64,000 bases of DNA from Thermoanaerobacter ethanolicus JW 200 (GTDB lineage: Bacteria > Bacillota > Thermoanaerobacteria > Thermoanaerobacterales > Thermoanaerobacteraceae), in NCBI RefSeq assembly GCF_003722315.1, contig NZ_CP033580.1, forward strand, positions 1 through 64,000, written 5' to 3'. Made by a program: the position numbers and the translations under genes. The notes beneath the pieces were generated by a model. That model did no database searches. It was given only the letters and a program-made list of their open reading frames with translations, and was not told where the DNA came from. This document shows positions 4,297 through 21,100 of the stretch, one piece after another (within the stretch, counting starts at the first letter, position 1; every line of letters begins with the position of its first letter).

Positions 4297-4316
4297 GACA
4301 AAAATAAAAGCAAGAC

Positions 4317-4434: not shown

Positions 4435-4602
4435 ATGAAAAAAATAGGGGTTTCGCCTTTAGTTTTTCTTCTAATTGTATTTGCAATCTTATACTTGTAC
4501 TTTACATTAGATATTACTAAAACATCAAAATTATATTTCCTTGAATTATACAACTATCAGATTAGTTATGCTAATCGATTAATCGAAAGGTATCGGAAAT
4601 AG
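4435..4602 (+). CDS. Possible 55-residue membrane protein
   Basis: The ORF starts MKKIGVSPLVFLLIVFAI, one transmembrane helix, and ends in a basic tail (RLIERYRK). The ribosome site is weak and its last 24 bases overlap the convergent gene to the right. Coding is plausible from the composition but unproven. Confidence 0.35.
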   Translation: MKKIGVSPLVFLLIVFAILYLYFTLDITKTSKLYFLELYNYQISYANRLIERYRK

Positions 4603-5127
4603 TTTATATCTGATAGTTATCATATCCCCATCTTTTTTAACTTCCATTTTAAAAATTTTTTCTACGTAATCTGCAGACAAAAACGTTTCGTTATTTTTTA
4701 CTGATAGAGAATTCCCTAGGCTTATTTTTTCTCTACCAATGGTCACTGTTTTTTCTTTTAAATCAAAATAAATGTCGTTACTTTTTTCGTTCTTTATTAT
4801 TATTCTATTTCCTTCTTTCACAACATTTTCTTCTTCTGTTCCGCTTGCCAATACTATAGCTTCAAGTGGCAAATAAATTTTTGAGTCATAAATAAAAGGT
4901 GCTTCTTTGAGGTATATCCTTTTTGTAGATTGGCCCAAAATAAAATTCTCATTGCTTATAGGCCTTATTCCTATATCTGCAGCGTTAGAGTTTAGATGAA
5001 AGAAACTTGGTGTAGGAGTAGTAAAAAAATATAATGCCCATATGACGAACAATAAAAAAGTAAGTGGAGCAATTATCGTAGCAATAGGGTCTGTAATATT
5101 ATAAAACAATTCTCTTCTTTTTTTCAT
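4579..5127 (-). CDS. Membrane-anchored stalk-domain protein
   Basis: The protein has 182 residues. An N-terminal helix (about residues 15-35) anchors an extracellular domain with the copper-amine-oxidase-N-like 'stalk' pattern: IYLPLEAIVLASGTE, then GNRIIIKNE, then ETFLSADYVEKIF. Related domains occur here in the proteins at 23269-24276 and 43050-44459. The family is common on thermophilic Clostridia surfaces, where it probably supports or attaches other domains. AGAGGTG precedes the ATG. Confidence 0.65.
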   Translation of the reverse strand: MKKRRELFYNITDPIATIIAPLTFLLFVIWALYFFTTPTPSFFHLNSNAADIGIRPISNENFILGQSTKRIYLKEAPFIYDSKIYLPLEAIVLASGTEEENVVKEGNRIIIKNEKSNDIYFDLKEKTVTIGREKISLGNSLSVKNNETFLSADYVEKIFKMEVKKDGDMITIRYKLFPIPFD

Positions 5128-5148
5128 ACGTTCACCTCTTTTAATTTT

Positions 5149-5598
5149 CTAATGCGTTGGTACTCTAAACTGTTTCAACACATTTTTATGCACATAAATC
5201 GACCTAGGCAGGTCCGCTGGTCTTTTTCCAGCACTTCCGTTGAAGACAAGCCTTTCTTTTTCTTTGTTATAATCATAGTGAAGAATGCATAATTTTATAA
5301 GAGTATCATTACTGAGTTTGCCTTTTCTTGAAAGTGACCGTACAGCATCCATATGATCTTTTTGTAATGCTTCATAATCTTCTTTATCTTGTTCTCTTTT
5401 CTGCTTCTTATATTCGTTTCTCCACTGCTTGGCTTTTTCTTGGTTTTCCTTTTTACGGCGTTCTTTCTCATGATGATATTCTGGAAATTGCTTTAGCATT
5501 TTAGTAACAGCTGGCTGTGATACACCAAGCTGCTGCGCTATTTCCACTAACTTAAATCCTTCAAGATATAGTTCGAGGGCTTTATTTTTTTTATCCAT
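5149..5598 (-). CDS. HTH DNA-binding protein, copy 2 of a duplicated cassette
   Basis: This paralogue of the product of 1568-2017 has about 80% identity and the same layout: helix-turn-helix (LVEIAQQLGVSQPAVTKMLK), basic helix, conserved C-terminal PRSIYVHKNVLKQF. GAGGTGG precedes two adjacent ATGs and I take the second. The pair of small ORF plus HTH gene has clearly been duplicated within the element. Confidence 0.65.
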   Translation of the reverse strand: MDKKNKALELYLEGFKLVEIAQQLGVSQPAVTKMLKQFPEYHHEKERRKKENQEKAKQWRNEYKKQKREQDKEDYEALQKDHMDAVRSLSRKGKLSNDTLIKLCILHYDYNKEKERLVFNGSAGKRPADLPRSIYVHKNVLKQFRVPTH

Positions 5599-5657
5599 CA
5601 TTCCACCTCTCAGGTTATATTTTTTGTTCCGTATTTTGGGCATACTGCGGCTATATA

Positions 5658-5786
5658 CTATGTCTTTATCATCAATTTCCAGCCTTCTCCGGCTTTTTCT
5701 ATTCTAATTTGTGCTACCTTCATAAGTCTTTCTGCTACTTTGAGGAGAAGCTCTTTATTTTTCATTGGTTTAAACTCAAGCCACAT
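5658..5786 (-). CDS. 42-residue conserved small protein, paralogue 2
   Basis: Homologue of the ORF at 2077-2205 with the same length and the same C-terminus (GWKLMIKT). Its ATG overlaps the stop of the upstream excisionase-like gene in TAATG, indicating coupled translation. Function unknown. Confidence 0.6.
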   Translation of the reverse strand: MWLEFKPMKNKELLLKVAERLMKVAQIRIEKAGEGWKLMIKT

Positions 5787-6115
5787 TATCTTCTGCCTCC
5801 CATGGCAATTACTTTACTGTTGCCTTTTTCTTCTTCAAACTTCTTCTGCATCCACTCTTCTAAGCCTCTCCTAGGGATGATTATTTTTTTGCCATGTATT
5901 TTCATAGCAGGAAAATCCTTATGTTTTGCAAGCTCATACATATAGCTTTTACTTACACCTAGCACTTTTGCTGCTTCATCTATTGTATAAGCGTCAAGTA
6001 AGGATAAAGGCTTTTGTTCTTCTTTATTCTTTTCTGCAGTGTTGAGAAGCTGGATGATTTGAGTTATAACGTCCGTAATGTCAACTTCAAATTTTATTGT
6101 TATTCTGTTATCCAT
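5786..6115 (-). CDS. Excisionase-like HTH_17 protein
   Basis: The 109-residue protein has an N-terminal extension and then a MerR/excisionase-type helix-turn-helix: YTIDEAAKVLGVSKSYMYEL, then FPAMKIHGKKIIIPRRGLEEWM. This is the 'helix-turn-helix domain 17' pattern of Xis-like proteins. AAGGAGG precedes the ATG. Serine integrases use a directionality factor for excision, and this is one of the better candidates in the element, though the family also includes ordinary regulators. Confidence 0.7.
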   Translation of the reverse strand: MDNRITIKFEVDITDVITQIIQLLNTAEKNKEEQKPLSLLDAYTIDEAAKVLGVSKSYMYELAKHKDFPAMKIHGKKIIIPRRGLEEWMQKKFEEEKGNSKVIAMGGRR

Positions 6116-6207
6116 GATTTTTTACCTCCTTATGTAAAATTGGAAGAAATAAGGGTATAATAGAGACAGAACAGTGGTTATACTTAAAAACTTATTCTGA
6201 ATTATCG

Positions 6208-6411
6208 TTAAGAACTTTTAGTTCGATTATTTGCTAAAAAAATTTCATCTATAGTAGTATTGAAGAAATTTGCAATCTTGATTGCAGTTTCCATACCGGG
6301 AATTCTACCACGTTCAATTTGAGAAACATAATCCGGAGTTATTCCAAGATTCTTTGCTAATTCTTTTTGTGTAAGTTTATATTTCATTCTTAGCTCTTTT
6401 AGTTTATTCAT
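6208..6411 (-). CDS. XRE-family repressor, 67 residues
   Basis: One Cro-type helix-turn-helix (LTQKELAKNLGITPDYVSQI, about residues 13-32) followed by NFFNTTIDEIFL. AGGAGGG precedes the ATG. It is divergent from the ImmR-like gene at 6565, with GAAC-N5-GTTC operators between them and one inside its own 3' end. Confidence 0.8.
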   Translation of the reverse strand: MNKLKELRMKYKLTQKELAKNLGITPDYVSQIERGRIPGMETAIKIANFFNTTIDEIFLANNRTKSS

Positions 6412-6428
6412 TAGTGACCCTCCTGTAT

Positions 6429-6496
6429 GAACTTGCTGTTCTTAATCTATTTATATTATACTGAACATTTAGTTCTATGTCAAGAACTTTTTGTTC
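6429..6496. promoter_or_regulatory. Operator array GAAC-N5-GTTC
   Basis: Three palindromes sit in the divergent promoter region: GAACTTGCTGTTC (6429-6441), GAACATTTAGTTC (6463-6475) and GAACTTTTTGTTC (6484-6496). A fourth, GAACTTTTAGTTC, lies at 6212-6224 within the 3' end of the leftward repressor gene. The last two intergenic sites are 21 bp apart centre to centre, two helical turns. They are probable sites for one of the flanking XRE proteins. Confidence 0.7.
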
Positions 6497-6564
6497 ATTT
6501 AAATATAAAAAATCGAACATTATGTTATAATTAATTTAAAACTAAAGCGAGTGGTGAAAGGAAT

Positions 6565-7047
6565 ATGTTAGGCAAAAGAATAAAGGAACTAAGAAAGAAA
6601 AAAGGACTAACGCAAAAAGATTTAGCCTTATATTTAGGTGTTTCAGATAGAGCAGTAGGATATTATGAAAATGAACAACGAACACCTCCTCCTGATATAC
6701 TACAAAAAATAGCAGATTTTTTTAACGTTTCTGTTGACTATTTATTAGGGCGTACTGATAATCCATCTGAAATAAAAAATTTCTCAAAAGAGATATCAAA
6801 AAACCCTATTATTAACCAACCCCAAGAATGGCAGCCAAAGCTTACAGAGAAAGACAAAAAAGACATTGCTAAAACTCTAAAAGAATGGATGAAAGACCTC
6901 ACAAGCGCAGAAGGACTGGCTTTCTTTAATGGTGAGCCGATTGATGAGGAAACTAAGGAATACTTGAAAGATTCTTTTGAGATGATTTTAAAACACGCTA
7001 GGTTGATGAATAAGAAAAAATATACTCCTAAAAAATACAGAAAGTAA
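6565..7047 (+). CDS. ImmR-like XRE repressor of module 2
   Basis: The protein (160 residues) has an N-terminal XRE domain (LTQKDLALYLGVSDRAVGYY) and the DFFNVSVDYLLGRTDNP signature, then a basic, helical C-terminal half. It is followed by an ImmA-like gene and then integrase, all on the same strand, so this module probably controls excision of the element. Confidence 0.8.
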   Translation: MLGKRIKELRKKKGLTQKDLALYLGVSDRAVGYYENEQRTPPPDILQKIADFFNVSVDYLLGRTDNPSEIKNFSKEISKNPIINQPQEWQPKLTEKDKKDIAKTLKEWMKDLTSAEGLAFFNGEPIDEETKEYLKDSFEMILKHARLMNKKKYTPKKYRK

Positions 7048-7071
7048 TCCCTGAAATGAAGGTGATATAGA

Positions 7072-7500
7072 TTGGTTAAATATTCTCAGGAAGAAATAAA
7101 GCAGCTGGCAGAAAAACTCATTAAAAAAACTGATTCTGCCAGCCCCTTTGAAATAGCTAAATATTTAAATATTAACATTGTAGAATGTGAATTGGGTAAT
7201 ATTCTTGGTTACTATAAATATCATAAACGTAACAAGTACATAATAATTAATCAAAATCTTGATGAGGCTATGAAGCTGATTGTATGCTCGCATGAGCTCG
7301 GGCATGCAGTTTTACATACTCGTGTTAATACTCCATACCTAACTAAATTCACACTGTTTTCAGAGAGTCGAATTGAAAGAGACGCTAATGTATTTGCTAT
7401 GTATGTTTTACAGCAACTAGGTAAATGGAATTACTATGTATTTGTTAATATTTTGAAATTGCCCGAAGTATTAATAAAAAATTCTAGTTGTGTAATCTAA
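7072..7500 (+). CDS. ImmA/IrrE-like metalloprotease, module 2
   Basis: The protein (142 residues) carries CSHELGHAVLHT, an HExxH zinc motif in the typical ImmA setting, and IERDANVFAMYVL, which supplies the third ligand region. It starts at TTG, 24 bases after the repressor gene. In ICEBs1 the equivalent protease degrades ImmR to switch on integrase and excisionase, and the neighbourhood suggests the same job here. Confidence 0.85.
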   Translation: MVKYSQEEIKQLAEKLIKKTDSASPFEIAKYLNINIVECELGNILGYYKYHKRNKYIIINQNLDEAMKLIVCSHELGHAVLHTRVNTPYLTKFTLFSESRIERDANVFAMYVLQQLGKWNYYVFVNILKLPEVLIKNSSCVI

Positions 7501-7507
7501 ACAAAAA

Positions 7508-7535
7508 GCTGGTTAAAAAGAAAACTGGCTTTATT
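7508..7535. terminator. Probable terminator between immA-like gene and integrase
   Basis: GCTGGTT pairs with AACTGGC, including two G-T pairs, across an A-rich loop. A T-rich stretch follows on the plus strand and a run of five T on the minus strand. Termination here would partly uncouple integrase from the regulators. Confidence 0.4.
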
Positions 7536-7593
7536 GTTGAAGAAAATTAGAATACTTCACAAAAGCTAAATAAGGTTGAGGAGGGAATTTCTC

Positions 7594-9099
7594 ATGGTTG
7601 ACACAGAGTTAAGAGCTGCTGCATACGCAAGATACTCTAGCGATAATCAGCGAGAAGAGAGCATTGAGGCCCAATTAAGAGCCATAAAAGAGTACTGCGA
7701 AAAGAATAATATACAGCTTGTAAAGATATATACTGATGAAGCGAAAAGTGCTACAACCGATGACAGACCAGCATTTCTGCAGATGATAAAGGACAGCTCA
7801 TTGGGTCTTTTTAATGCCGTTATTGTTCATAAATTGGACAGGTTCGCTCGCAACAGATATGACAGCGCCTTTTACAGAAGACAGTTGAAAAAGAATGGTG
7901 TAAAATTAATATCGGTATTAGAACAGCTTGACGATAGTCCTGAGTCTATAATTCTTGAGTCGGTACTTGAAGGGATGGCTGAGTACTACTCCAAAAACCT
8001 CGCAAGGGAGGTTATGAAAGGATTGAAAGAAAATGCTTTTCAGGCCAAATTTAATGGAGGTATACCACCTTTGGGATATGATATTGTGGATGGAAAATAT
8101 GTGATAAACGAAAAAGAAGCTGAAGCAGTGAGACTGATTTTTGAGTTATATGCACATGGGTATGGATATAGGCAGATAATTGATGAATTAAACTTAAGAG
8201 GTTACAGAACTAAGAAGGGGAATCCGTTCAGCAAAAACAGCATTCATGAAATTTTAAAAAATGAAAAATATACAGGTAAATATATATTCAACAAAGGCAC
8301 AAAGAAAAATCATAGAATAGTAAAAGAAGACGTAATCGTTATAGAGAATGCTATACCTGCAATCATTGATGAAGACTTATTTAAAAAAGTGCAGGAGAAA
8401 ATGGAAGAAAGAAAAGTAACAAGAGGGGCTAATTCTGCAAAAAGGGTTTATCTTTTGTCAGGTCTTGTTTACTGCGGAATATGCGGTTCTAAAATGGTAG
8501 GGTGTTTAAGCAGAGGAAAATATGTAACTTATAGATGCAGCAGAAAGGACAGAACAAAGCAGTGCACAAATAGAGATATAAATAAAGAAAAAGTAGAAGC
8601 TTTTGTCATAGATGAGCTGAACAAGAGAGTGCTTGACCCAAAAGTAGCGCCGGTATTGGCTAGACTTTTAAACGAGGAGAATCAGAAGCTAAATAAAGAG
8701 AGAGCAGAAGAAATTACTTTTTTAAAAAAGCGCTACAAGGAGGTTGAAGAGCAGATGAAAAACATAGTAGAAGCTATTGCTCAGGGGATGTTCCAGCCAA
8801 TAATGAAAGAAAAAATGAACGAATTAGAAGCAATGAGAAATGAGCTTGCTTACAGAATTAAAGAGCTGGAAAATAAAAAAGAGACAGACTTTATTACACC
8901 AGAAATGATTTTGAAAATCTTTGAAAAAGATAGGGAAATAATTAATTCATCGAAGGACCCTCATGAAATTAAAGAAGTGCTTAAAAACTACATAAAAAAA
9001 ATAATCGTCACCCCAGATGAAATAAAGTGTGAATTTTACTTCTGGATAGGTGACGATTTCCGTTCTTTGCTGGTAGCGGCGAATCGCTCTCAACTTTGA
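7594..9099 (+). CDS. int: Large serine recombinase (integrase), form with attP-encoded C-terminus
   Basis: The 501-residue protein contains a resolvase N-terminal catalytic domain (AAYARYSSDNQ; catalytic Ser about 15; LDRFARNRYD), a recombinase domain (GGIPPLGYDI onward, about 150-270), a zinc ribbon (YCGICGSKM ... YRCSRKD ... QCTN, about 295-335), a long coiled coil and a C-terminal tail. GAGGAGGG precedes ATG 7594. The earlier TTG at 7576 overlaps that site and is unlikely. The gene runs through the attachment site, so its last four residues (NRSQL region) come from the other end of the element. The copy at 60330 ends differently. Confidence 0.95.
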   Translation: MVDTELRAAAYARYSSDNQREESIEAQLRAIKEYCEKNNIQLVKIYTDEAKSATTDDRPAFLQMIKDSSLGLFNAVIVHKLDRFARNRYDSAFYRRQLKKNGVKLISVLEQLDDSPESIILESVLEGMAEYYSKNLAREVMKGLKENAFQAKFNGGIPPLGYDIVDGKYVINEKEAEAVRLIFELYAHGYGYRQIIDELNLRGYRTKKGNPFSKNSIHEILKNEKYTGKYIFNKGTKKNHRIVKEDVIVIENAIPAIIDEDLFKKVQEKMEERKVTRGANSAKRVYLLSGLVYCGICGSKMVGCLSRGKYVTYRCSRKDRTKQCTNRDINKEKVEAFVIDELNKRVLDPKVAPVLARLLNEENQKLNKERAEEITFLKKRYKEVEEQMKNIVEAIAQGMFQPIMKEKMNELEAMRNELAYRIKELENKKETDFITPEMILKIFEKDREIINSSKDPHEIKEVLKNYIKKIIVTPDEIKCEFYFWIGDDFRSLLVAANRSQL

Positions 9100-9104
9100 A
9101 CGGA
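9059..9104. other. attP of the serine integrase
   Basis: The site is an imperfect dyad: TCCGTTC at 9059-9065 mirrors GAACGGA at 9098-9104, and AGCG at 9075-9078 mirrors CGCT at 9085-9088. The axis lies between 9081 and 9082. Identity with the attR sequence ends exactly at 9082, so the exchange dinucleotide is probably GA at 9081-9082. The left arm carries the last bases of tRNA-Met including the CCA end. The layout (two half-sites around a 2-bp core) is as known for serine integrases. Confidence 0.8.
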
Positions 9105-9106
9105 TT

Positions 9107-9493
9107 TTAAATTATGTTTTTACAATAAGAAAAAATTTCTTTAGCATACATTATTGCCTTTTCAGCTGTTTTAATATCTGGCATCCCTAAAGCTGTTGTG
9201 CCTGGCATGGCAGTAGGATATCTCGTTGGAATATAAAATTGGTTTAATACTTGGGCTTTAGATAGGAAGTTTTCAAAAGATTTATCATGTTGTGTACAAA
9301 GATTTACAAGATCTATTAAATTATGAATTCGAGGAGGATTATGTTTTTGACTTACTAAAAATGCTTTTAAAGCTTTTTCTACAGCCTGATGGGAAAAGAA
9401 ACAAACCATATTGTATTTACCTGCTTTAAACATGATTTCTGCTGAGTCAAGGTCATCCATAGCAAAATCAAGCCATTGTTTTGCTTCTTTCAT
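9107..9493 (-). CDS. HEPN-domain protein of a HEPN-MNT pair
   Basis: The protein (128 residues) has the pattern of this HEPN family: AKQWLDFAMDDLDSAEIMF, FFSHQAVEKALKAFL, RIHNLIDLV, and the conserved YIPTRYP. HEPN-MNT pairs act as toxin-antitoxin or abortive-infection modules; in studied cases HEPN is an RNase and MNT modifies it. Its ATG lies 26 bases inside the end of the MNT gene, so translation is coupled. The gene ends within a few bases of attP, making this the first cargo gene of the element. Confidence 0.85.
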   Translation of the reverse strand: MKEAKQWLDFAMDDLDSAEIMFKAGKYNMVCFFSHQAVEKALKAFLVSQKHNPPRIHNLIDLVNLCTQHDKSFENFLSKAQVLNQFYIPTRYPTAMPGTTALGMPDIKTAEKAIMYAKEIFSYCKNII

Positions 9494-9803
9494 AAATAAC
9501 CTTTCCTTTCTTTAATATTTCTTCAACGTAAAACATACTTTCTTTCATTTCTTCTATTTCTTTTGGGGTATACACTATAATATCCGTGCCAATAGTAGGC
9601 TTAGCAACTTTAACAACTTCCTCTAATCTTTCGTAAAAAGACTTGTCAGTATCCTTTATAACTATTAAATCAATATCGCTCCATTCATTTATTTGATTTG
9701 TCGCTAATGAACCAAATAATATTATTTTTTCAGGTTGATACTCTTTTATCAGCACTTCTACAATTCTTGTAAGTTCTCGATTTAATTGTTCTATTCTGCT
9801 CAT
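9468..9803 (-). CDS. MNT-type nucleotidyltransferase (antitoxin of HEPN)
   Basis: The 111-residue protein carries the minimal nucleotidyltransferase motif GSLATNQINEWSDIDLIVI (GS-x10-DxD), with a third acid in TIGTDIIVY. It probably adds nucleotides to the HEPN partner (as known for MntA/HepT). GAGGTG precedes ATG 9803. Confidence 0.85.
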   Translation of the reverse strand: MSRIEQLNRELTRIVEVLIKEYQPEKIILFGSLATNQINEWSDIDLIVIKDTDKSFYERLEEVVKVAKPTIGTDIIVYTPKEIEEMKESMFYVEEILKKGKVIYERSKTMA

Positions 9804-9944
9804 AGAAAACACCTCAATTTGAAGGTTTTACCTTTAATCCGTTATATCAAATTGCAATTATTCTATAAGAGTTTATTTCCGTCTTTTTAATTTTTTATTT
9901 CCTCGCTTTAATTTCTGTAAGATGTGATATAATTATAATTATAG

Positions 9945-10019
9945 ACAGAAAAACACTTCGAGTGTTATGAATATGTGGAATGTGGGAATAGGTAGATGTG
10001 AGCTACCTATTCTTTTTTT
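9945..10019 (+). ncRNA. Candidate small RNA with intrinsic terminator
   Basis: In the 370-bp gap between the MNT gene and the next ORF, two overlapping TATAAT boxes lie at 9928-9939. Behind them are a small hairpin (AACACT-tcg-AGTGTT, 9952-9966) and a strong terminator (GAATAGGTAG/CTACCTATTC with seven T, 9986-10019). A promoter and terminator about 75 bases apart with no ORF suggest a small RNA. The rest of the gap (10020-10150) shows nothing I recognise. Confidence 0.45.
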
Positions 10020-10152
10020 ATGTTTATTTCTATTCTAAGAGTTTTAAATTTCTATTTTAATTGTTTATAGATCTCAAAAATTCTTCTTCACAATTAATTA
10101 TAGCATGCATATTATAACATTTCTATGCAAAATTTCTTAAAGTTTTCTCTTG

Positions 10153-10180
10153 AATGCAGTGGCAAAACTGCCACTGCATT
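10153..10180 (-). terminator. Hairpin downstream of the gene at 10185
   Basis: AATGCAGTGGC pairs perfectly with GCCACTGCATT across six bases. It sits just beyond the stop codon of the leftward gene, so it probably ends that transcript, although the T-run is weak. Confidence 0.6.
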
Positions 10181-10184
10181 GTTA

Positions 10185-10736
10185 TTATACTTTTACTTTA
10201 GTAAAATCGAGACCATACTGATACGACAAAATTGCTAAAGCTTCACTCAATCCATACTCATCAACAGCGTAATAGCTTTCAAGGTTGTCTAAAATACAAC
10301 TCTGTTTGTTTCTTCTACACAACTTAACATGAGGGTAAGTACCATTGTGATGAGGCTGATATAATACCACCAAATCTCCTTTTTCTGCCAATCTCATCAG
10401 CTCATCTTTTTCATATTTGCCTTTCTTTTCTAGTATTTTTCTGGCTGTTTCTTTGAATTCTTCAGCTTTTTCTCTTAAAACTTTATAATCAAAATCAACA
10501 GTAATGTAAGTATTACCTCCAGCAAGTATATCGTTTGTGTAATCATCCCATCTTACATATTCATACTTCTTAACAACAGCTTCTACAAGCTTTTTAGAGA
10601 CCTTCAAGTCTTTAATTCTAACTTCAATTGACTTATCTAAAAGGTATGTTTTAGCTCTGACGCTTACCTGTTTCGATGTTATGCCGTGCTTCCTTAAATT
10701 TTTTCTTATTTCTTCAGCAATTTCTCTAGCAGTCAT
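10185..10736 (-). CDS. Hypothetical protein, LPD29-like
   Basis: The protein (183 residues) starts MTAREIAEEIRKNLRKHGI and continues with SVRAKTYLLDKSIEVRIKDL, a pattern resembling the 'large polyvalent protein associated' domain LPD29 of mobile elements. The second half is basic and ends with a small mixed domain. GGGAGGG precedes the ATG. It is a single-gene unit: repeat copy A lies directly upstream and a hairpin directly downstream. Function unknown. Confidence 0.5.
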   Translation of the reverse strand: MTAREIAEEIRKNLRKHGITSKQVSVRAKTYLLDKSIEVRIKDLKVSKKLVEAVVKKYEYVRWDDYTNDILAGGNTYITVDFDYKVLREKAEEFKETARKILEKKGKYEKDELMRLAEKGDLVVLYQPHHNGTYPHVKLCRRNKQSCILDNLESYYAVDEYGLSEALAILSYQYGLDFTKVKV

Positions 10737-10795
10737 TTTGCATTCCCTCCCCTAAAATTTCTTACTTGCTCGGATTTGATAGTCTACCGCTAGAA

Positions 10796-11016
10796 CTTAC
10801 TCTCTTACGCCATGTGCTTACACCTCCTCATTTTTTGTTTGCTTCTTGTTTGCCCCCGGCAGTTAAAACAAAACAGCCTGCGAGCCGAAGGTCAAGGGGT
10901 CGGGGAGGGATACCGGACCGAGCGTAAACGAGGGAGGATATGCTCACCGACCCGAAGGGCTTGCCCCTTGACCGAAAGGCGAGCAGGCGTATAATTTTTT
11001 GTGCGGGGGCAAACAA
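10796..11016. repeat. Structured repeat, copy A (core 10846-11016)
   Basis: The 171-bp GC-rich core is bounded by TTGTTTGCCCCCG and its exact inverse. Inside are nested pairs: GCCTGC with GCAGGC, GGTCAAGGGG with CCCCTTGACC, GGGTCGG with CCGACCC, GAGCGTA with TATGCTC. A further 50 bp on the left are shared with copy C. Copies C and D are full length and B is partial. It separates the HerA operon from the gene at 10185. The fold could be an RNA, a MITE or a recombination site. Confidence 0.85.
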
Positions 11017-11044
11017 AAAAAACACGTCTGCAAAAGCAGAGGTG
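11012..11044 (-). terminator. Terminator of the HerA operon
   Basis: Read on the minus strand, CACCTCTGC pairs with GCAGACGTG (one mismatch) across a four-T loop and is followed by a run of eight T. The T-run is the outer edge of repeat copy A. Confidence 0.7.
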
Positions 11045-11119
11045 CTTAATTACAACATAGATGAAGTTTACAAAAAACTTTATTTGTGGCTACTAGAAAA
11101 GCTTTATTAACAACATTTA

Positions 11120-12901
11120 TTATATAAAGTGGTTTTCTCGTAAAAAATCTTTTGGAGTATTAAAAGCTGTAAAGAAAAGCGGTGACCCAGCAAAGGATAG
11201 AGGAGATACAGGACCTACTGTCATAAATGCATATTGGCGCGAAAAAACATCAAAAGAACTATGAGGATCGCGGAATGATTGATATAATTTCAATGCATTA
11301 GTATCTCCTCCCACAATTTCTCTCAAAGCCTGAAATTCGGTTCCCAAGGCTAAGCCGAATCCAAAGAAGAAAATTCTAAGTTGTCCTATTATTTCCTTAT
11401 GGAGACTCGACAATGTTTGACTTATAAACATCCATCCAAGACCATATTTTCTTGTAGTTCTTGCGGCATCAATTAATCTATTTTTTATTCTCTCCATTCT
11501 TTCATCTGTCTGTTTTTCTTTTGGTGCTAATCTATGGGCTTCATCTATTAACACTAAGGTATTAAGATTTGTTTTACTATATTTTTTTTCTTGTATTTGC
11601 TCTTTTTCTTTTTTATGATATACCGATTCTGCCATCTCAGTAATAGCTTCTAGAAACCTGTCAATTAACAAAGGTTTTATTTTCCTATCCCACACATCTT
11701 GCTCTACGTCTTCAGGCTTTTGAGATAAATCAATTATAATTAAAGGCCTTTTTTCAGGATAAAGAGATTCATTTACTATCTGCCCAGGACTTTTCCTACC
11801 ATTACCTTGGAAAAATAGAGATACCTTTCGCCATTTTTCAAAAATACTTGTTTCTAAGTTATTTTCAATGTCACTTAAAGTTTTTACTATAGTATTCCTA
11901 ACTCTTTCAACTCCACTTTTATCTGCATAAATTTTTTCAATAATTTGATGAATGTATTGCAATGTTTTCACAAATGTATTTTTATCTAAATTTTCAAGCT
12001 TGATATTTTTATCTTTTCGTAAAAATTCCAAAACATCTTCTGCTACTATTTCTTGATATTCTGAACTTTTTATTCCGAGTTCAAAGAAGAACTTATATTC
12101 TCGAAGTAATTCTACAAAGAGCTCCCATCTATCAAGTTTTAACGTAGAAAGGTCATATATAAACCATTCTTTATTTAACTTTTCTAAAATTGTGTGATTT
12201 AAAATATAAGACATATTATCGCCTTGTTTATTTCTTAAACTGAGAGCAAATTCTCCTTGAGGGTCCAAAACAAATATTCCCATATCTTCATACCTTGCAT
12301 AAGCGAGTAATATCATTTTTGCTAAAACAGATTTTCCCGAACCTGTTTTCCCAAAAATGCCTATATGATAAGCTTCTCCAGCACCACAGGGACCAGAAGA
12401 AAAATCTTTAAACCACAAGGGTAATTTGGGGGTAGAACCATAAACATGACCAAGATAGAAAATTTCTTCTTTATACCTTTCTAAAAGTTTATTTAATATA
12501 TCGTCAGTAACTAATTTAACAAATGTCCCAGTAGGCGGTACTGTTCCCAAGATGCTTGGTACGAATTTATCTCCTTCATCACTAAACACAGCACTTACTG
12601 TCATCTGCCCTAAATGAGTATCCTGTCTACCGCTTATTTGACTGATTTTCCCTTTTTGTCTTGCTAAAGATCTCATAGTAGGATCTTCAAGCCATGCATT
12701 TCTTAATTGAATTTCTGTTATTTGTCCTAAAGCATAATGTCTTTTTCCGTCTTGATTAAAATCAAAAAAAGCTAATTCTCCCACTAGTTTTTTATCCACT
12801 GCAGTTCCTAGAATATCTAAAGCAAGTCCACTAGTTGAAGAAGGCGAACCAATAGTAGCTATGCGTTCAGCATTATCCAATAGTTTTTCAAAATCCCCCA
12901 C
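11120..12901 (-). CDS. herA: HerA-like ATPase/translocase (DUF87) of a DruA-NurA-HerA operon
   Basis: The 593-residue protein has an N-terminal HAS-barrel-type region (about 1-150), then Walker A GIFGKTGSGKSVLAKM near residue 185, FVLDPQGEFALS, and Walker B LNTLVLIDEAHRLAP near residue 445, followed by the HerA arginine and sensor segment (RKYGLGWMFISQ). HerA forms hexamers that pump DNA and pair with the nuclease NurA, whose gene is directly upstream with a two-base gap. It starts at GTG after AAGGAGG. In bacteria, HerA with a nuclease is often a defence system. It is the last gene of the three-gene operon. Confidence 0.9.
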   Translation of the reverse strand: MGDFEKLLDNAERIATIGSPSSTSGLALDILGTAVDKKLVGELAFFDFNQDGKRHYALGQITEIQLRNAWLEDPTMRSLARQKGKISQISGRQDTHLGQMTVSAVFSDEGDKFVPSILGTVPPTGTFVKLVTDDILNKLLERYKEEIFYLGHVYGSTPKLPLWFKDFSSGPCGAGEAYHIGIFGKTGSGKSVLAKMILLAYARYEDMGIFVLDPQGEFALSLRNKQGDNMSYILNHTILEKLNKEWFIYDLSTLKLDRWELFVELLREYKFFFELGIKSSEYQEIVAEDVLEFLRKDKNIKLENLDKNTFVKTLQYIHQIIEKIYADKSGVERVRNTIVKTLSDIENNLETSIFEKWRKVSLFFQGNGRKSPGQIVNESLYPEKRPLIIIDLSQKPEDVEQDVWDRKIKPLLIDRFLEAITEMAESVYHKKEKEQIQEKKYSKTNLNTLVLIDEAHRLAPKEKQTDERMERIKNRLIDAARTTRKYGLGWMFISQTLSSLHKEIIGQLRIFFFGFGLALGTEFQALREIVGGDTNALKLYQSFRDPHSSFDVFSRQYAFMTVGPVSPLSFAGSPLFFTAFNTPKDFLRENHFI

Positions 12902-12903
12902 TT

Positions 12904-14037
12904 TTACTTACCTCCTTCAGTTCTATATCCATGCATAGTAAAAAATATTTCAGAAAAATCTTCGTCCTCGTACAATTCTATTATTTGCCGGGTTGAAGAC
13001 TGCCTAAATGCAGGCATCGCACTTCCTAAATGTTTTACCATCCTATCAGCCATAAACAATGGATAAGGTTCCATAATACCTGCTGTACCACACTGATAAC
13101 GTAATCCTTGAAATAATATAGATAATCGACTTTTATTGGTTGCAACAGAAGAAGGTATTTCTAATCTTAAAGCTGGCATCCATGAATGCGGTTTATAATA
13201 CACAACATGAATTTTTTCAAGAAGTGAAGTTATTTCATCTATAACTCTATCTAATTTCTGGTCATCCTTTGACGAAGCTAAATGCCATTTTCCTATTGGT
13301 TTTTCCAAAGGAATTGGAGTAGTATATTCTCCAGCAGACAAAATAAAAGTCATTAGTGCCCTATCATCATAATGAGAAGCCCATCCTAAGCTTTTTCCAA
13401 GTTCTTGCCTTGTTGTATATTTTGGTAAACTAACCCATATTTTGTCACTCTTTGAAGCCTCAAGGACAGTTCTGTAAGCCATTAGAAACGATTCAAACCT
13501 TTTAATTAATTCTTCAATTATATCTGTATTTTTTTCTTTTGCTTTGGTCACTGCTTGATTCATATAAATTATAGGAGTAGTAAAAGAACCGTCCAACATT
13601 ACAATATCATGAGGAGCATTTACAGCAAGTTCTAATTCCATTTGTATCATAATTCCTCTTACTATAGATGGTGTATCATCATCTCTTTTTTCATGAGCCA
13701 TAAAAGTTAAATGTTTAGGTGCTTCCCAATGCCTTGTCTCAAAAGGAGGAGTTAAACCTTCTACCGCAACCGCAGCACATCCAACAAGGTCCATTGCCAT
13801 AAGTTTTTCAATAGCATAAGATCCATCTACTCCACAAGTAGTAGGAGGTTGAGGAAATTCAAGTTCTCTATCATTCTTTAACATTCCACTTTTCTGAAGC
13901 TGCTCTCGAATTTCTTTTTTCTTCTTTTTAAGTTCTTTAAACATTAAAAGAATTTCTTCTCCTATTTGATTACTTTTTTCTAACATTTCCTCCACAAGAG
14001 CTTCTGGAAGTTCAGAAAAAACGCTTTGTTCTTCCAT
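12904..14037 (-). CDS. nurA: NurA-domain nuclease
   Basis: The 377-residue protein carries TTCGVDGSYAIEKLMAMDLV near residue 70, the NurA motif whose aspartate binds the metal, and later acidic motifs (VMLDGSFTTPI near residue 160). A coiled-coil region precedes the nuclease core. NurA is a 5'-3' nuclease that works on HerA. It sits between the DruA-like gene and herA with small gaps, so the three are one operon. Confidence 0.88.
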   Translation of the reverse strand: MEEQSVFSELPEALVEEMLEKSNQIGEEILLMFKELKKKKKEIREQLQKSGMLKNDRELEFPQPPTTCGVDGSYAIEKLMAMDLVGCAAVAVEGLTPPFETRHWEAPKHLTFMAHEKRDDDTPSIVRGIMIQMELELAVNAPHDIVMLDGSFTTPIIYMNQAVTKAKEKNTDIIEELIKRFESFLMAYRTVLEASKSDKIWVSLPKYTTRQELGKSLGWASHYDDRALMTFILSAGEYTTPIPLEKPIGKWHLASSKDDQKLDRVIDEITSLLEKIHVVYYKPHSWMPALRLEIPSSVATNKSRLSILFQGLRYQCGTAGIMEPYPLFMADRMVKHLGSAMPAFRQSSTRQIIELYEDEDFSEIFFTMHGYRTEGGK

Positions 14038-14070
14038 TTTACTGGATCCTCCACAATTATTTTAATTAAA

Positions 14071-15312
14071 TCATTTAATTAAAAGATACTTTTTTAAATT
14101 ATCCTTATTCCAATATCTCCATTCATCATTAGTTTTTACTCTTCGCTTTAGATATCGTTCCTTCCAATATTCAGCTAATTCTTCAAATTTGTAATCATAA
14201 TATTTAACCTCTTTATCAATACCATTGATATATTCAACTACATTTGAAGCTAGCGGAAAAACAAAAACTTCTCTTTTTACTTCATGCTTTAAAAGCTGTT
14301 TTATGCTTTTTATATTTAAAACTTCTTTCAAATCTATTTCCTTATTTATTTCCTTAATAGCTGTATTAATTAGTCTAAATTTATAGTTAGGACCATTACC
14401 ATATCCACCTTTAACTTCGATTCCTTTTAATAACAAATACTCTTTCATTAACCTTGAAATTTCGTCAGTATACTTAAAAGCCCCAAAACCTTTTGTATAA
14501 CCAAGTGAAAAACATAATAGCTTGTCCTTATATTTGACCCTGTTATATATAGAACTGCGCCCATAAGCTGAAGTTGTTGTGAAAAGTACTAAATGAGGAG
14601 ATATAATATTTTGTTCCATTTCAGTTTTTTTGTTGCTATACTTTTCTCTATAGAAATCTCTAACCTCATTAGCTACGGCGCTCATTGCTACTAATTTGCC
14701 ACCCAGCAACATATTGTAAGGTGGTACTGCACCTAATGTAAAAATATCCATCGTCTCATTAAGTTTATAAACTTTATCTTTCCCTTTTAAGTTGAGCCAC
14801 TCATTCCTTAATTTTATTCCTAGAGCTGGAGAATGGGCTCCCAATATTCCTATAAGTTTCCCATTGTATTCGTCCATTATAAGAAAACACAATCTACGCC
14901 CATAACCATTTGAAAATGGCAAACTCCATGTAAATCTCGCTGTTTTAAAAATATCCCATTCTTCCTTTGTTCTAACAGGAATTAACCTAGGAGATATTTT
15001 TTCTGGTACGATATCATCTCCCTCTGCAAAATATTCATCAATAATCTTTTCGCCCTTTTCAATCAAAAATTTTCTGTGTTTAAGCAAAAGCTCAATTCGA
15101 GCTCTCTCATGCATTTTTCTCAATAGGTCCTTATTTTGTGTGTCTGGAGTGTTTAAAACGTAAGCCTTTATTTGTTCTATGATTTTGTCTCTTAGCATTT
15201 CTCTTTTTTTCTCGAGGCCTACACAATTATTTATTTCATCATCTATTTCCGAATTTATTTCATGCTCCAATATATAATCATTTAGTTGTTGAATCCAAAC
15301 TTTCGTTAACAA
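14071..15312 (-). CDS. DruA-like protein (DUF4338-type), first gene of the HerA-NurA operon
   Basis: The 413-residue protein has a helical N-terminal third and a core with LIGILGAHSPALGIKLRNEW, FTLGAVPPYNMLLGGKLVAM and LVLFTTTSAYGRSSIYNRVKY. This is the pattern I associate with DUF4338 and the Druantia protein DruA. DruA was defined in the Druantia anti-phage system with the helicase DruE, which is absent here; HerA and NurA follow instead. It starts at TTG seven bases after GGAGGTG. The partial repeat copy B lies upstream. Family recall is by motif only. Confidence 0.65.
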   Translation of the reverse strand: MLTKVWIQQLNDYILEHEINSEIDDEINNCVGLEKKREMLRDKIIEQIKAYVLNTPDTQNKDLLRKMHERARIELLLKHRKFLIEKGEKIIDEYFAEGDDIVPEKISPRLIPVRTKEEWDIFKTARFTWSLPFSNGYGRRLCFLIMDEYNGKLIGILGAHSPALGIKLRNEWLNLKGKDKVYKLNETMDIFTLGAVPPYNMLLGGKLVAMSAVANEVRDFYREKYSNKKTEMEQNIISPHLVLFTTTSAYGRSSIYNRVKYKDKLLCFSLGYTKGFGAFKYTDEISRLMKEYLLLKGIEVKGGYGNGPNYKFRLINTAIKEINKEIDLKEVLNIKSIKQLLKHEVKREVFVFPLASNVVEYINGIDKEVKYYDYKFEELAEYWKERYLKRRVKTNDEWRYWNKDNLKKYLLIK

Positions 15313-15369
15313 TTTAAAGCACCTCCATATATTAGTAATTATACCATAATTGTTCCAACTATAAAAACA

Positions 15370-15434
15370 TTTTAAGACAATGAAATTCCAAAAAAAGACT
15401 TCTTTCTACTTCTGCTTGGCAGTACTGGAGCAAG
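15370..15434 (-). pseudogene. Remnant of the 3' end of a CpaE-like gene
   Basis: Read on the minus strand this encodes LLAPVLPSRSRKKSFFGIS, closely matching the C-terminus of the ATPase at 27511-28602 (LLAPVLPSRKKRRTLFGVF). It is fused at base 15434 to the second half of a structured repeat. The joint lies in a GCAAG shared by the gene tail and a D-type repeat, so this is a recombination scar. Confidence 0.65.
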
Positions 15435-15516
15435 AGGATATGCTCACCGACCCGAAGGGCTTGCCCCTTGACCGAAAGGCGAGCAGGCGTATAATCTATG
15501 ACGCGGGGGCAAACAA
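15435..15516. repeat. Structured repeat, partial copy B
   Basis: It holds only the last 82 bp of the 171-bp core, from AGGATATGCTC to the CGGGGGCAAACAA arm, so most stems lack their partner. The linker before the terminal arm differs from that in copies A, C and D, while the stem sequences are the same. The rest of the 290-bp gap (15517-15603) shows a short hairpin (GTCTGC/GCAG) and nothing else. Confidence 0.8.
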
Positions 15517-15603
15517 AAAAAGCACGTCTGCTTTAAGCAGTTATAATACTAAAAAAACGGTCAATATTTTTGTTTCCCCCTTTCAATTTCTAAAAGATTC
15601 GGC

Positions 15604-15858
15604 TTAATTTAAACTGTGGTTAACTTCTTTACCATTTTTCCAAAGCTCATATTCACTCAAATCCATTTCGCTATTCCAACTTACACCATATCCTCCTGGA
15701 TCAACTTTTACCGCTTTGAAAAAAGCTTTGTTTTTCAATAGCTCAAACGGCCACTCATTAAGCTTTGGTTTCATATCGTATTCTTTCACTATTCCATTAT
15801 CAAAAGTAACAAGCAGTTTATAATCATCTGTTGCTTTCACACTGACAACTTTATACAT
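15604..15858 (-). CDS. DUF2442 protein
   Basis: The 84-residue protein has the DUF2442 pattern: a short beta-rich domain (KLLVTFDNGIVKEYDM) and the C-terminal GYGVSWNSEMDLSEYELW. It is routinely found directly after a DUF4160 gene, as here with a six-base gap, and the pair is suspected to be toxin-antitoxin-like. Biochemical function unknown. Confidence 0.85.
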   Translation of the reverse strand: MYKVVSVKATDDYKLLVTFDNGIVKEYDMKPKLNEWPFELLKNKAFFKAVKVDPGGYGVSWNSEMDLSEYELWKNGKEVNHSLN

Positions 15859-15864
15859 GTTCCA

Positions 15865-16113
15865 TCACTCCAATCCAGGCAATTTTCGAAATACCTGAGT
15901 CTCCCACATTTCTAGAAGTTCACGTTGATATTTGCTAGCCCATTCAACGACTAACTCTTTTGCTCTTCTAGGTAAATCTCCTTCAATCATTTTAAGAGTA
16001 TTAATATCAAATACACCTACGTATTCTCCATATATAGCATGAAAGTGTGGCGGAAAGTGATCTCCAAAGTACATTTTAATTACTATGCCATAAAACCTTG
16101 TTATCTCTGGCAT
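15865..16113 (-). CDS. DUF4160 protein
   Basis: The 82-residue protein has the family signature PEITRFYGIVIKMYFGDHFP followed by PHFHAIYGEY. AAGGAGAGG precedes the ATG. Upstream (16114-16274) is AT-rich with no ORF, then repeat copy C. It forms a two-gene cassette with the DUF2442 gene. Confidence 0.85.
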   Translation of the reverse strand: MPEITRFYGIVIKMYFGDHFPPHFHAIYGEYVGVFDINTLKMIEGDLPRRAKELVVEWASKYQRELLEMWETQVFRKLPGLE

Positions 16114-16274
16114 TTTACTATCCTCTCCTTAAGTCTAACATATTTTATCATTATATATCAAAGCAATTAATTATCCCTCAAATATCAAACATTCCTCTTC
16201 ATAAATTGATTATACCACAGCGTAGGGAAATATAATTATATTTTTAACTATTCTCTTAAAACATACTGCTGTAG

Positions 16275-16495
16275 CTTACTCTCTTACGCCATGTGCTTAC
16301 ACCTCCTCATTTTTTGTTTGCTTCTTGTTTGCCCCCGGCAGTTAAAACAAAACAGCCTGCGAGCCGAAGGTCAAGGGGTCGGGGAGGGATACCGGACCGA
16401 GCGTAAACGAGGGAGGATATGCTCACCGACCCGAAGGGCTTGCCCCTTGACCGAAAGGCGAGCAGGCGTATAATTTTTTGTGCGGGGGCAAACAA
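16275..16495. repeat. Structured repeat, copy C (core 16325-16495)
   Basis: Full-length copy, identical to copy A over the compared 221 bp including the 50-bp left extension (offset 5,479). The right-hand hairpin partner (GCAGAGGTGCT) found beside A and D is missing here. It lies between the DUF4160 cassette and the rightward ATPase gene. Confidence 0.85.
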
Positions 16496-16559
16496 AAAAG
16501 CACGTCTTTTCAACTAATATCATTAAATTTAAAATGTAGTTTAAAAAATTGTCTATAAA

Positions 16560-16636
16560 ATATAAAGTATACTTCATATTTTATGTATAAAAACATAAAG
16601 TATGTGTTATAATATTATATGTGGGAGGTGATAAAA
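16560..16636 (+). promoter_or_regulatory. Promoter of the DUF4143 ATPase gene
   Basis: TATAAT (near 16610) stands 20-odd bases before the GGAGGTG ribosome site. Upstream lie the perfect palindrome AAGTATACTT (16565-16574) and a second ATAAAGTAT, which could be operator sites. Inferred from pattern only. Confidence 0.45.
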
Positions 16637-18070
16637 ATGTCTATTACAAGCTCAGAAAATATATTAAGGATTCTATACTCTTATAACCCATGGTGGAGAG
16701 AAGGATATTTTCCTCAGGATCTATCCAAACCCGTAAAGAGAGTAGTCTATCATCAGGCATTTGAATTACTAATGCATCCAACTATCAGAAGATATGTCAT
16801 ACTTTCAGGTGCACGTCGTGTAGGTAAAACCACAATTTTATATCAAATGATAGAAACCCTTTTAAAAAATCAAGTGCATCCAAAAAAGATATTGTATGTA
16901 TCTTTTGATCATCCTTTATTTAAGTTAAGTTCCTTTGACCAAATTCTTAACCTTTATGAAACCACTGTAAATGAAGAAAAAGAGGCTTATATATTTCTAG
17001 ATGAAATTCAATATGCAAGTGATTGGGACAGATGGTTAAAAGTCTATTATGACACCAAACCAAAATGGAGAATTATTGCCACAGGTTCAGCTTCTCCCGC
17101 ACTTATTGAAGGTACAAAAGAAAGTGGTGTTGGCCGCTGGACTGTGATTTCTGTACCTACTCTTTCTTTTTATGAATTTTGTGAAATACTTGGAGTCTCA
17201 GAAAAACCAAATAACTTACCCGATTTAGATTTAAACGAAATTTCAAATTTAAATGAGTCTCAATTAAGTGAGCTTATGTTTTTACTTATGCCATTGCAAA
17301 AGTACTTTAATAAGTATTTAACAATAGGAGGATTCCCCGAATTTGTATTCTCAGAAGACCAATTTTTGGTGCAAAGAATGTTAAGAGAAGATGTGGTTGA
17401 TAAAGTTATTAAAAGAGATATACCTTCCTTGTTTAATGTGAGAAATTTAGCAGTATTAGAGAAGGTTTTTTTGTACTTATGCTTCAATTCTGCAAATGTT
17501 ATAAGTATTTCAACGATAAGTAAAGAAATTGGAGATGTTTCAACAGTAACAGTAGAAAACTATATTCATCTTCTTGAAAATGCAAATTTGATTTATAAAA
17601 GTTTACCCATAGAATTAGGAGGGAAAAAAGTTCTAAAAGCAAAACCAAAAATTTACGTCTCTGATCCTGCTTTAAGAAATGCAGTTTTGATGATAGACAA
17701 TATACTCTTAGACAGTAAAGAGCTTGGAATAACGGTTGAGACAGCAATTTTTAAACATATCTATAATTTTTACTTGCAAACAAATGCTAGAATAGGTTAT
17801 TTTAGAAAATCTTCTGATAATCAAAAAGAAATTGATGTAGTTGTTGAATTCCCACATAGTAAATCCTTAATTGAAGTGAAATTCAGAGAAGATACAACAC
17901 TTTCTGAAAATGAAGCTATCGTTGAGATGAGTCAAAAGGAAAAAAATATTGCTTCAGCAGTATTAGTAACAAAAAGACCAGAAGATTATGGAAAAGTTAA
18001 GATTTCAACAAAGGTACCAATAATAAAAATTCCTGCTTATGCATTTATGTATTTATTTGGGAGACGATAA
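16637..18070 (+). CDS. AAA_14/DUF4143 ATPase
   Basis: The protein (477 residues) has Walker A SGARRVGKTTILYQM near residue 55, Walker B EAYIFLDEIQYASDW, sensor ATGSASPAL, and a C-terminal DUF4143 region (EIDVVVEFPHSKSLIEVKFR) that resembles a restriction-endonuclease-like fold. The family is widespread and mobile and its function is unclear. The ATG at 16637 follows GGAGGTG; an upstream ATG at 16619 overlaps that site. It is one of few rightward genes in the cargo region and has its own promoter and a strong terminator. Confidence 0.88.
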   Translation: MSITSSENILRILYSYNPWWREGYFPQDLSKPVKRVVYHQAFELLMHPTIRRYVILSGARRVGKTTILYQMIETLLKNQVHPKKILYVSFDHPLFKLSSFDQILNLYETTVNEEKEAYIFLDEIQYASDWDRWLKVYYDTKPKWRIIATGSASPALIEGTKESGVGRWTVISVPTLSFYEFCEILGVSEKPNNLPDLDLNEISNLNESQLSELMFLLMPLQKYFNKYLTIGGFPEFVFSEDQFLVQRMLREDVVDKVIKRDIPSLFNVRNLAVLEKVFLYLCFNSANVISISTISKEIGDVSTVTVENYIHLLENANLIYKSLPIELGGKKVLKAKPKIYVSDPALRNAVLMIDNILLDSKELGITVETAIFKHIYNFYLQTNARIGYFRKSSDNQKEIDVVVEFPHSKSLIEVKFREDTTLSENEAIVEMSQKEKNIASAVLVTKRPEDYGKVKISTKVPIIKIPAYAFMYLFGRR

Positions 18071-18117
18071 CTTATTCATTTCATTGAAAATTGGAGTATG
18101 AATGAAATAAAAAATAT

Positions 18118-18155
18118 GCCCTGTATAGAGCAGTTACTCTATACAGGGCTTTTTA
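18118..18155. terminator. Bidirectional terminator
   Basis: GCCCTGTATAGAG pairs with CTCTATACAGGGC (13 bp, perfect) across six bases, with T-runs on one side and A-runs on the other. It separates the converging ATPase and surface-protein genes. Confidence 0.9.
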
Positions 18156-21100
18156 TTAAAACTTTGGTCCGATAATTTGTGATTTTGAATTGTCGTATAT
18201 TGAACCTTTCACTCTGACGGTAATAGTATTTGTAGCTGTTTTTACTCCTCCGCCTGCCAGCTGCTTATAAGCCGTAAATACTATCTTGTAAGTACCGTCA
18301 GGCATATTTTTAGGAATAATTACAACAACATCTCTTCCTTCTTCCTTAGTATGTTTAGTATGCCATGACATTATATTTTGTGGTGGAGTGGTTAAAGGTA
18401 TGTCAGGTGCTAAAGTGGTCACATTGGAAGAAGTAAATTCATTTTTCGGGTACCACATTTTTGCTTCTACACGGTAGACCTTTCCTTCCGTTCGGGCATA
18501 AAGAATCATTGCTTCTCCTGCTTTGTATGTGGTCTTATTAGAGCTTCCAATAACAACAAGCTTTCCTTGAACTTGTACTGTAACTATATAAGGATCTGAC
18601 CACATCGGCGTGAGGTTTGGGTTTCTGCCTGTTGGGTCATCCAATACTCTCAGCTGTATCTTGTATATTCCATCATCTCCAAGTCCCATTTCCTCAAAAG
18701 TAGGCTTCCATTGATTTATTGTTACCCATGTCCCATCAGGCTTCTGCACTTTCCATTCTCTTGCCACAATCGGGTCACCGTCGGGGTCATAGCTTTGATC
18801 TGTTATTATAAATGGTTCATCAGCTACTACTGGATTAGGACTTATTGTAAATTTAGCTACAGGTTTATTATTTTCAGGTATTATCGTTACTGTTTGTGTA
18901 TACGGCTCTGACCAAAGTGGTGTCCCAACACGAGGATTATCCCTAACCTTAAGCTCTATTGTATATGTTCCAATTCCTAATGAAGGTATATTGTTAGGTA
19001 CAGTGCTGCCGTAGTTTATCCATGTCCCATCGGGTTTCTGCACTCTCCACTGCCACTCTGCAATAGGATCTCCATTTGGGTCATAGCTTTGGTCAGTTAT
19101 AGTTATTGTCTTATTTACAACTTGGACAATTGGATTTACAGTAAACTGTGCAACAGGCGGTAAGTTTATATTCTGCGTCGTTATTGTCTGTACTTTTGGC
19201 TCGCTCCATGCTCCTTCTAAATCCTGTACCCTAAGGTATACTAAGTAGGTCTTTCCTACAGGGAATGTGCCAGACATTTTCCCATCATGCCACGTTGTTT
19301 CATTTACTTCCTTCCACTTCCACTCCCACGCCTGTATACCTTTATTAGGCAGTGACATATGGTCTAGGTCATAGCTTTGGTCTGTAATAGAGATAATATA
19401 ATTTGAGCCGCTTGAGGTCATAGTCACAGCGAACTGTGCAATAGGTCTTCTGTGAACATAGATGTACATAGTGCTTAAAGGCTTATAGCTCCACAGCCTG
19501 TAGTTGTCAAATCTATCATCATCTTTTGGATTATCTCTTGCTTGATAATCTACTTCGTATTTTCCAACCTTATCAAAGACAGTTACAGGAACATCTAGAT
19601 ATTTTCCATTAAAGCTTGCAAGTCCTAAGCTGTTTTCAAAGTAATTTGGGTCATGAAGGTACATCCATCTTTCTTGATATTTTGGGTCATTTTCTGGGTC
19701 ATTGTAGTAAGTTTTTATCTCAATTGGTTCGCCTAATATAACATATTTTTCAATTATCCTTTGTTGGTTTTCTAAGTCTTTTGCAATATACTCTGCAATA
19801 GCAGTCAGTTGATTGCTTATGCTGTCATCAATAACTTTAAATCCACCATTTGTGATTAAGCTTATAAGCCCATCTGCTTGTGATGCAGGAAATGTTGTCT
19901 GCCCTGCAATTACTAATTTTGAAGATAATTGATTTATTGCATTTGCAAACTTTGTTTTTGCATTATTATCGTTGTAATCCAAGAAAGATAGGTCATTAAA
20001 AACTAGTACATATTTTCCAGCATTTAAATTATTAAAAACAACATTTAAGAGGCTATCTCCAAGCATATCAAGTTTTGCTTCTGTCGGTCTTTCTATACCC
20101 AGCAGTGTAGTAATACTTCTCTGTTGATTGGATGCAACACTCTGGGAGTGCCACCACAAACTTATTGCCGTATCACCCGTCTGATATGTTTGTCCAACGT
20201 AATAACTGCTGCTGAAATGTGCTCTGCCGTCATCGTAAGGAAAATAAGTATAGTTACTGCCGCTCCATGTTTCCATTCGCCAGTCTGTAGGAGGAGTAAT
20301 TACTGGATTATCTTTCAATATCCCTACTGCTCTAACCTGATATGTGTCATTGTAAATCTCAAATCCCTTATTCGTTACTTTTATTGGAGAACCATCATTA
20401 CCTGCTACGCAAGTATCATAGTATACCTTAAATCCTATGTTCTTTTGTACAGTAGTTTTATTCGTCGCAACAAAATTTATGAGCACATATTTATCGTCAT
20501 AGATTGTGTATATTACCTTTATCTCTACTCCATTTATTGTACCGTAATTAACTACTATTTTGCCATTTTCTGTAGTAATTGACGTGGGTGTGTAATTATA
20601 CAGGTTATACAAATTCCCATCAATTTTCACTACAAGTGCTGACGTAGTTGATACGTCTCCTCTATAAAGCAAGTACTGATTATCATCAGAAGTAATGCCC
20701 GGAAAACCTTCCACAGTGGTAATCCCGAATCTCCCTGCAGTATCTACAGTAGCTTTAATTACATAGCTTGATACAGTATATCTGCTACCATCAAAACTCG
20801 TATTTCCTCCATAAGTTCCTGTCCCAAAGTCACTGTCTATCACTTTTGCATCAATGTTTTTGCTGTTTAAAAGAGGTATCAGCAAATTATTTATTCCATC
20901 CTCCAGCTGTTTTATCCTTGCATCATAATTGTTCAATTTACCAACCCTTATAACCAACTCTGCTTTCTTCTTTTCATACATTTCAAAATCCACAACAGGC
21001 TGTAAGTTTATCACTTCACATATTTTATCCTTCATCGGCTTATTTGAAGTATCGCTGGTTTTATAATCCGAAGGAGATATAAACTCAGGTATGGTTTCTT

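Follow-up and report, generated by a model that had tools for sequence, protein, structure and literature searches.

A DruA-NurA-HerA operon in an integrative element of Thermoanaerobacter ethanolicus as a candidate mobile defence system

What might an operon that joins a DruA-like protein to a NurA nuclease and a HerA translocase be doing in a bacterium? The question is raised by positions 11,120 to 15,312 of the first 64,000 nucleotides of contig NZ_CP033580.1 of Thermoanaerobacter ethanolicus JW 200 (this whole stretch is hereafter referred to as the window), where three such genes lie on the reverse strand. A preliminary description, made from the sequence alone, had put them forward as a candidate defence system, and the candidacy stands, given that the trio is conserved across many phyla, is mobile and has, in some loci, defence genes embedded in it. 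We consider it probable that the operon acts as a mobile defence against invading DNA, be it a phage, a plasmid or a rival element; this function is inferred.

The first gene, druA (14,071-15,312, TTG start), codes for a protein of 413 amino acids, modelled with an N-terminal helical region and a GNAT-fold core. Its assignment to DUF4338, for which the preliminary description had called for a hidden Markov model search, was confirmed by matches to PF14236 (Pfam, E=5.4e-70) and to the DruA model of PADLOC (E=1.3e-88). It is followed by nurA (12,904-14,037), coding for a predicted RNase H-like nuclease of 377 amino acids with a match to PF09376 (E=6.4e-8; 32.8 bits against a curated cut-off of 21), and by herA (11,120-12,901, GTG start), the predicted hexameric translocase of 593 amino acids, whose central domain matches PF01935 (E=4.8e-15). 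The operon is as tight as had been claimed, druA being separated from nurA by 33 nt and nurA from herA by 2 nt, and a GGAGG-type Shine-Dalgarno-like site can be read upstream of each of the three starts.

Both partners of the predicted engine retain their expected motifs. In HerA, Walker A (GKTGSGKS) and Walker B (DEAH) are invariant across the aligned homologues, and this protein with intact Walker motifs adjoins a nuclease, as in HerA-nuclease defence systems. Across 76 aligned NurA homologues, D71 and D149 do not vary and E134 hardly varies; by analogy with Asp49 of Thermococcus kodakarensis NurA (PMC12977600) they are taken as putative active-site or metal-binding residues. The NurA structure model (predicted local distance difference test, pLDDT, 92) was matched by Foldseek to the solved NurA structures 9x1m and 2ygk (E ~1e-11). 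Sequence-profile searches of solved structures with the NurA and DruA profiles returned no true relatives.

The distribution of the trio was assessed by scanning a profile built from the window NurA against 84,980 prokaryotes (one genome per species) and viral contigs, after which 82 NurA loci were kept, 77 of them readable on both sides. DruA, NurA and HerA follow each other in this order and direction in 66 of the 82 loci, and the order NurA-HerA-DruA was found in three; of the remaining loci, one has DruA-NurA and then the contig end, four are cut upstream and eight have NurA-HerA without DruA. All three genes are thus adjacent in 69 of the 77 readable loci, a linkage that is not due to chance. 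Median gaps, measured in 49 loci, are -8 nt for DruA-NurA and +2 nt for NurA-HerA. The carriers, many of which are thermophiles, belong to about 20 phyla, archaea included, as judged from record titles and the tree, with many metagenome bins among them whose single assignments may be wrong. Moreover, two viral contigs carry trio-type loci.

Within the phylum of the window, PF14236 matches occur in 37 of 299 genomes and trio-type DruA in nine (G000, G130, G264, G226, G295, G098, G115, G031 and G179), eight of which have NurA and HerA genes beside it. Two of these pairs are very divergent: G098 has DruA-NurA'-HerA' and G115 has NurA'-HerA'-DruA, with a NurA' below the reach of the family profile, the NurA-like assignment of which is based solely on DG motifs, size and position.

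Genes embedded in the operon provide the strongest indirect argument for defence, as such insertions are habitual in defence loci. Extra genes lie within the operon in five loci, and from their matches all appear to be known or likely defence genes: sacsin-like HATPases matching TmtA in L027 (E=3.7e-98) and L028, GmrSD-type genes matching HEC-06/Orf5 in L030 and L040 (E ~1e-46 to 1e-48) and a P-loop/pentapeptide protein in L023.

The operon is, furthermore, accessory and mobile. It sits at one end of an integrative and conjugative element (ICE), a setting already proposed in the preliminary description; the element spans 9,071-61,818 and is bounded by the 12-bp ends TGGTAGCGGCGA (9,071-9,082 and 61,807-61,818), a sequence from the 3' end of tRNA-Met. 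Two copies of a 234-bp structured repeat, 99% identical and both on the forward strand, border the cassette at its left (10,796-11,029) and right (16,275-16,507) sides. In a related ICE of another genome of the genus (G303) the operon is absent and its flanks meet with only one copy of the repeat, which represents an exact empty site: a joined-flank query of 1122 bp matched it over 1115 bp at 94%. NurA of the window type was present in only six of the 299 phylum genomes and three of the 24 genomes of the order, and it was absent from G302, a genome of the same species. In L015 the trio stands amid replication genes of phage type, next to a methylase of 1103 amino acids.

How such a system may work is suggested by the solved Thermococcus HerA-NurA complex, by analogy with which a hexameric HerA ring would pump double-stranded DNA into a NurA dimer that would cut both strands. 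DruA would be the specificity or licensing part, and it might either load the motor by recognising or marking the invader (or an unusual state of DNA) or mark the host DNA so that it is spared. Since the same family is coupled to the DruE helicase in Druantia type I, DruA looks like an exchangeable front end that could serve different motor-nuclease back ends. In T. kodakarensis, six HerA and two NurA subunits form a complex that pumps double-stranded DNA and degrades its two strands; the study doubts that it takes a direct part in resection and proposes an antiviral use (PMC12977600). A pair of a HerA ATPase and a nuclease is a proven phage defence (PMC11291478).

The defence HerA models are only distant relatives of the protein described here: the window HerA reached 17.6 and 21.7 bits with the two HerA_antiphage equivalog models, whose cut-offs are 800 and 850. 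The trio resembles HerA-DUF4297 and HerA-Sir2 in having a HerA-family ATPase ring and an effector in a small operon, and differs from them in its effector, the NurA nuclease, and in its third component, DruA. The earlier statement that no described system joins the three proteins agreed with our search of 5.39 million papers, where no paper naming DruA and NurA together was found, preprint servers and most subscription journals lying outside that search. DUF4338 is mentioned in three of these papers, two of which were seen to give no description of this operon. The trio is most likely undescribed so far and akin to the HerA-nuclease class of defence, although an earlier description is possible.

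Some observations weigh against a defence function. The preliminary description had proposed counting the trio in defence islands, and while the trio itself recurs as stated above, the islands were less evident: PADLOC matches in the immediate flanks were only modestly above a random-region control. Among 254 flanking genes there were, for example, five type II methylase members, type I, IIG and III restriction-modification genes and reverse transcriptases, and among 137 random-region genes a few methylases, one DndD and one CARF; the mad3 model, with a similar share of matches in the two sets, carries no information. An enrichment of defence genes in the flanks was not upheld as an argument. 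In addition, distances between NurA and HerA sequences correlate strongly (r=0.87), whereas those of DruA correlate less with NurA (r=0.46) and HerA (r=0.37), the null having an sd of ~0.06 and host kinship not being removed from these values. DruA may thus be a replaceable partner, and the weaker correlation fits a fixed NurA-HerA engine whose partner is exchanged at times. Finally, a pair of NurA-HerA type in a Thermus ICE works in DNA donation (PMC5365140), which by analogy could apply to the operon of the window.

DNA donation is the strongest rival to defence, albeit an unlikely one in our estimation. HerA and NurA would then process donor DNA and pump it out for the transfer of the ICE and the chromosome, with DruA as an accessory. 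Efficient transjugation in Thermus depends on three proteins of the element ICEth1: the NurA-like TTC1878 (377 amino acids), the HerA-like TdtA and the type IIG enzyme Tth111II (PMC5365140). The likeness to the window is close, namely a NurA-like protein of 377 amino acids beside a HerA-type ATPase within an ICE and, in ICEth1, adjoining a restriction-modification enzyme, although the two were compared by published description, and the Thermus pair has a demonstrated role in donation with no DruA mentioned. Two other loci of the family are suggestive of the same role: the divergent G115 operon comes after a VirB4-like gene, and the large methylase of L015 adjoins the trio. Donation is harder to reconcile with the known defence genes inserted into the operon and with the many settings of the trio, which include a prophage-like one and viral contigs; besides, the ICE of the window has another DUF87-type gene of its own (30,202-30,594).

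HerA and NurA are also a classical repair pair, and a module for repair or end resection, as a variation on the archaeal HerA-NurA-Mre11-Rad50 set in which DruA would help, would suit the many thermophilic carriers. With the archaeal set the trio shares the NurA-HerA pair, the NurA fold and the HerA motifs; it differs in having no adjoining Mre11-Rad50, in its mobility and in the addition of DruA. Three Nitrososphaeraceae loci (L083, L084 and L087) have a NurA-HerA pair of the same family, followed by Mre11-like and Rad50-like genes. No DruA was found there, and homologues of the L084 Mre11 and Rad50 were detected in these three loci only and in no DruA-bearing locus. By their gene content these loci seem to be a separate, repair-type branch. 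Together with the patchiness of the trio, this branch led us to reject housekeeping repair as the principal function, a role the preliminary description had named as what would speak against its proposal, and we regard a repair module in any form as quite improbable.

A further locus without DruA was noticed in Methanolobus (L092), where NurA-HerA lies between an N6/N4 methylase with a HATPase protein on one side and a type I restriction-modification set on the other; here the same engine may be combined with a different front end.

Could the operon instead be a subtype of Druantia, in which NurA-HerA has replaced DruE and DruA acts exactly as it does there? DruA is clearly homologous, and Druantia type I likewise starts with a gene for a PF14236 protein. 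The DruA proteins of ~400 amino acids from plasmid operons of Pseudomonas putida and Nitrosococcus are 32-33% identical to that of the trio and fall within the same family tree; in these Druantia-I-like operons DruA comes first and a DEAD/DEAH helicase last. However, the place of NurA and HerA is taken in Druantia by DruB-D and the giant YprA-family helicase DruE. The MZB domain that marks DruE (PF09369) had no match in the whole genome, with a control search positive in 8 of 14 genomes, and no large helicase adjoins the trio in the window. DruB, DruC and DruD are missing as well, only NurA and HerA being present downstream of DruA in the operon. For lack of DruE, membership in Druantia was rejected, and we consider a Druantia subtype very improbable.

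On a plasmid of Haloplanus (L159), a large DruA shares its operon with an FtsK-type translocase and two uncharacterised proteins, and a DEAD/DEAH helicase gene lies opposite; from its gene content this appears to be another pairing of DruA with a translocase.

The structure model of DruA (pLDDT 87.8) points to a GNAT fold: nearly all of the listed best PDB matches are GNAT proteins, in agreement with the previous naming of DUF4338 as a GNAT domain (PMC10853773). Phage Mu Mom, an enzyme that modifies DNA bases, was the top structural match (Z 9.7), with other GNATs tied within Z 1. Direct comparison of DruA with Mom gave an hhalign probability of 0.1%, and single-sequence comparison also yielded nothing; moreover, the invariant His48 and Asp139 of Mom are absent among the conserved residues of the trio DruA (alignment A4). 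The possibility that the trio DruA is a Mom enzyme was rejected, there being no direct sequence or profile match and a structural first place shared with other GNATs. The two are connected through a second, distant DUF4338 group (alignment A10, L112-L120 and L123), which has up to seven matches per genome (in G111): hhalign gave a probability of 96.8% for DruA against this group and 95.8% for the group against Mom, and one of its members matches the Pfam Mom family below the cut-off (E=1.6e-4). These profile links indicate that DruA and Mom belong to the same branch of the GNAT superfamily, and only such a superfamily link is claimed. The distant group is a possible missing link between them and is perhaps transposon-borne.

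Modification-restriction pairs, in which a Mom-type GNAT is coupled to a nuclease, have been predicted in jumbo phages (PMC7824862). On this precedent, DruA might be a GNAT of the Mom/DUF4338 kind that modifies bases or reads a modification, so that a non-methyl base mark would decide on the destruction of DNA by HerA-NurA in a self/non-self system. We hold this to be rather unlikely; if it were true, Druantia type I would combine this mark with a motor of another kind.

As to expression signals on the reverse strand, a promoter-like TTTATA-16-TATAAT with an extended TG (15,338-15,365) lies ~25 nt upstream of the druA start, as judged by consensus match only. The terminator ascribed to the operon is doubtful: a weak hairpin with a T-run is present downstream of herA (11,027-11,040), but terminator-like matches were near chance level, with five observed against 3.5 (sd 2.3) in shuffles.

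The 234-bp repeat is an imperfect palindrome (single-strand folding z -3.9), which in this genome occurs inside the ICE only, at the borders of cargo modules, and may serve their exchange. A partial third copy lies on the forward strand between druA and the DUF2442 gene (15,434-15,529), and a further copy at 27,228-27,410. Of the copies in G303, one lies at the empty site and another at the border of a DUF4160/DUF2442 pair, which has a different place there. The corresponding pair of the window, DUF2442 (15,604-15,858) and DUF4160 (15,865-16,113), was identified by Pfam on the reverse strand, in the same repeat-bounded stretch as the operon. The claim that toxin-antitoxin pairs adjoin the operon held in part: the flanking HEPN/MNT pair (9,107-9,812, Pfam) is of a known type, whereas DUF4160/DUF2442 is not. 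On the other strand next to the cassette, an AAA_14/DUF4143 ATPase (16,619-18,070, PDC-S01 in PADLOC) is a defence candidate of its own.

It should also be added that window positions 1-9,082, which are 100% identical to 52,737-61,818, lead from the right end of the ICE directly into its left end at 9,071, and that the contig end (2,900,854-2,911,280) repeats window positions 9,071-19,497. This is a tail-to-head joint, as in an excised ICE of circular form or in a tandem arrangement of the ICE, one of which the sequenced strain would have.

The trio bears on what bacterial HerA-NurA pairs are for: repair, defence or DNA transfer. If the operon is indeed a defence system, a widespread member would be added to the HerA-nuclease class of prokaryotic immunity, and DruA would be shown as an exchangeable front end common to Druantia and to a quite different motor-nuclease, with its role becoming testable in a small system of three genes.

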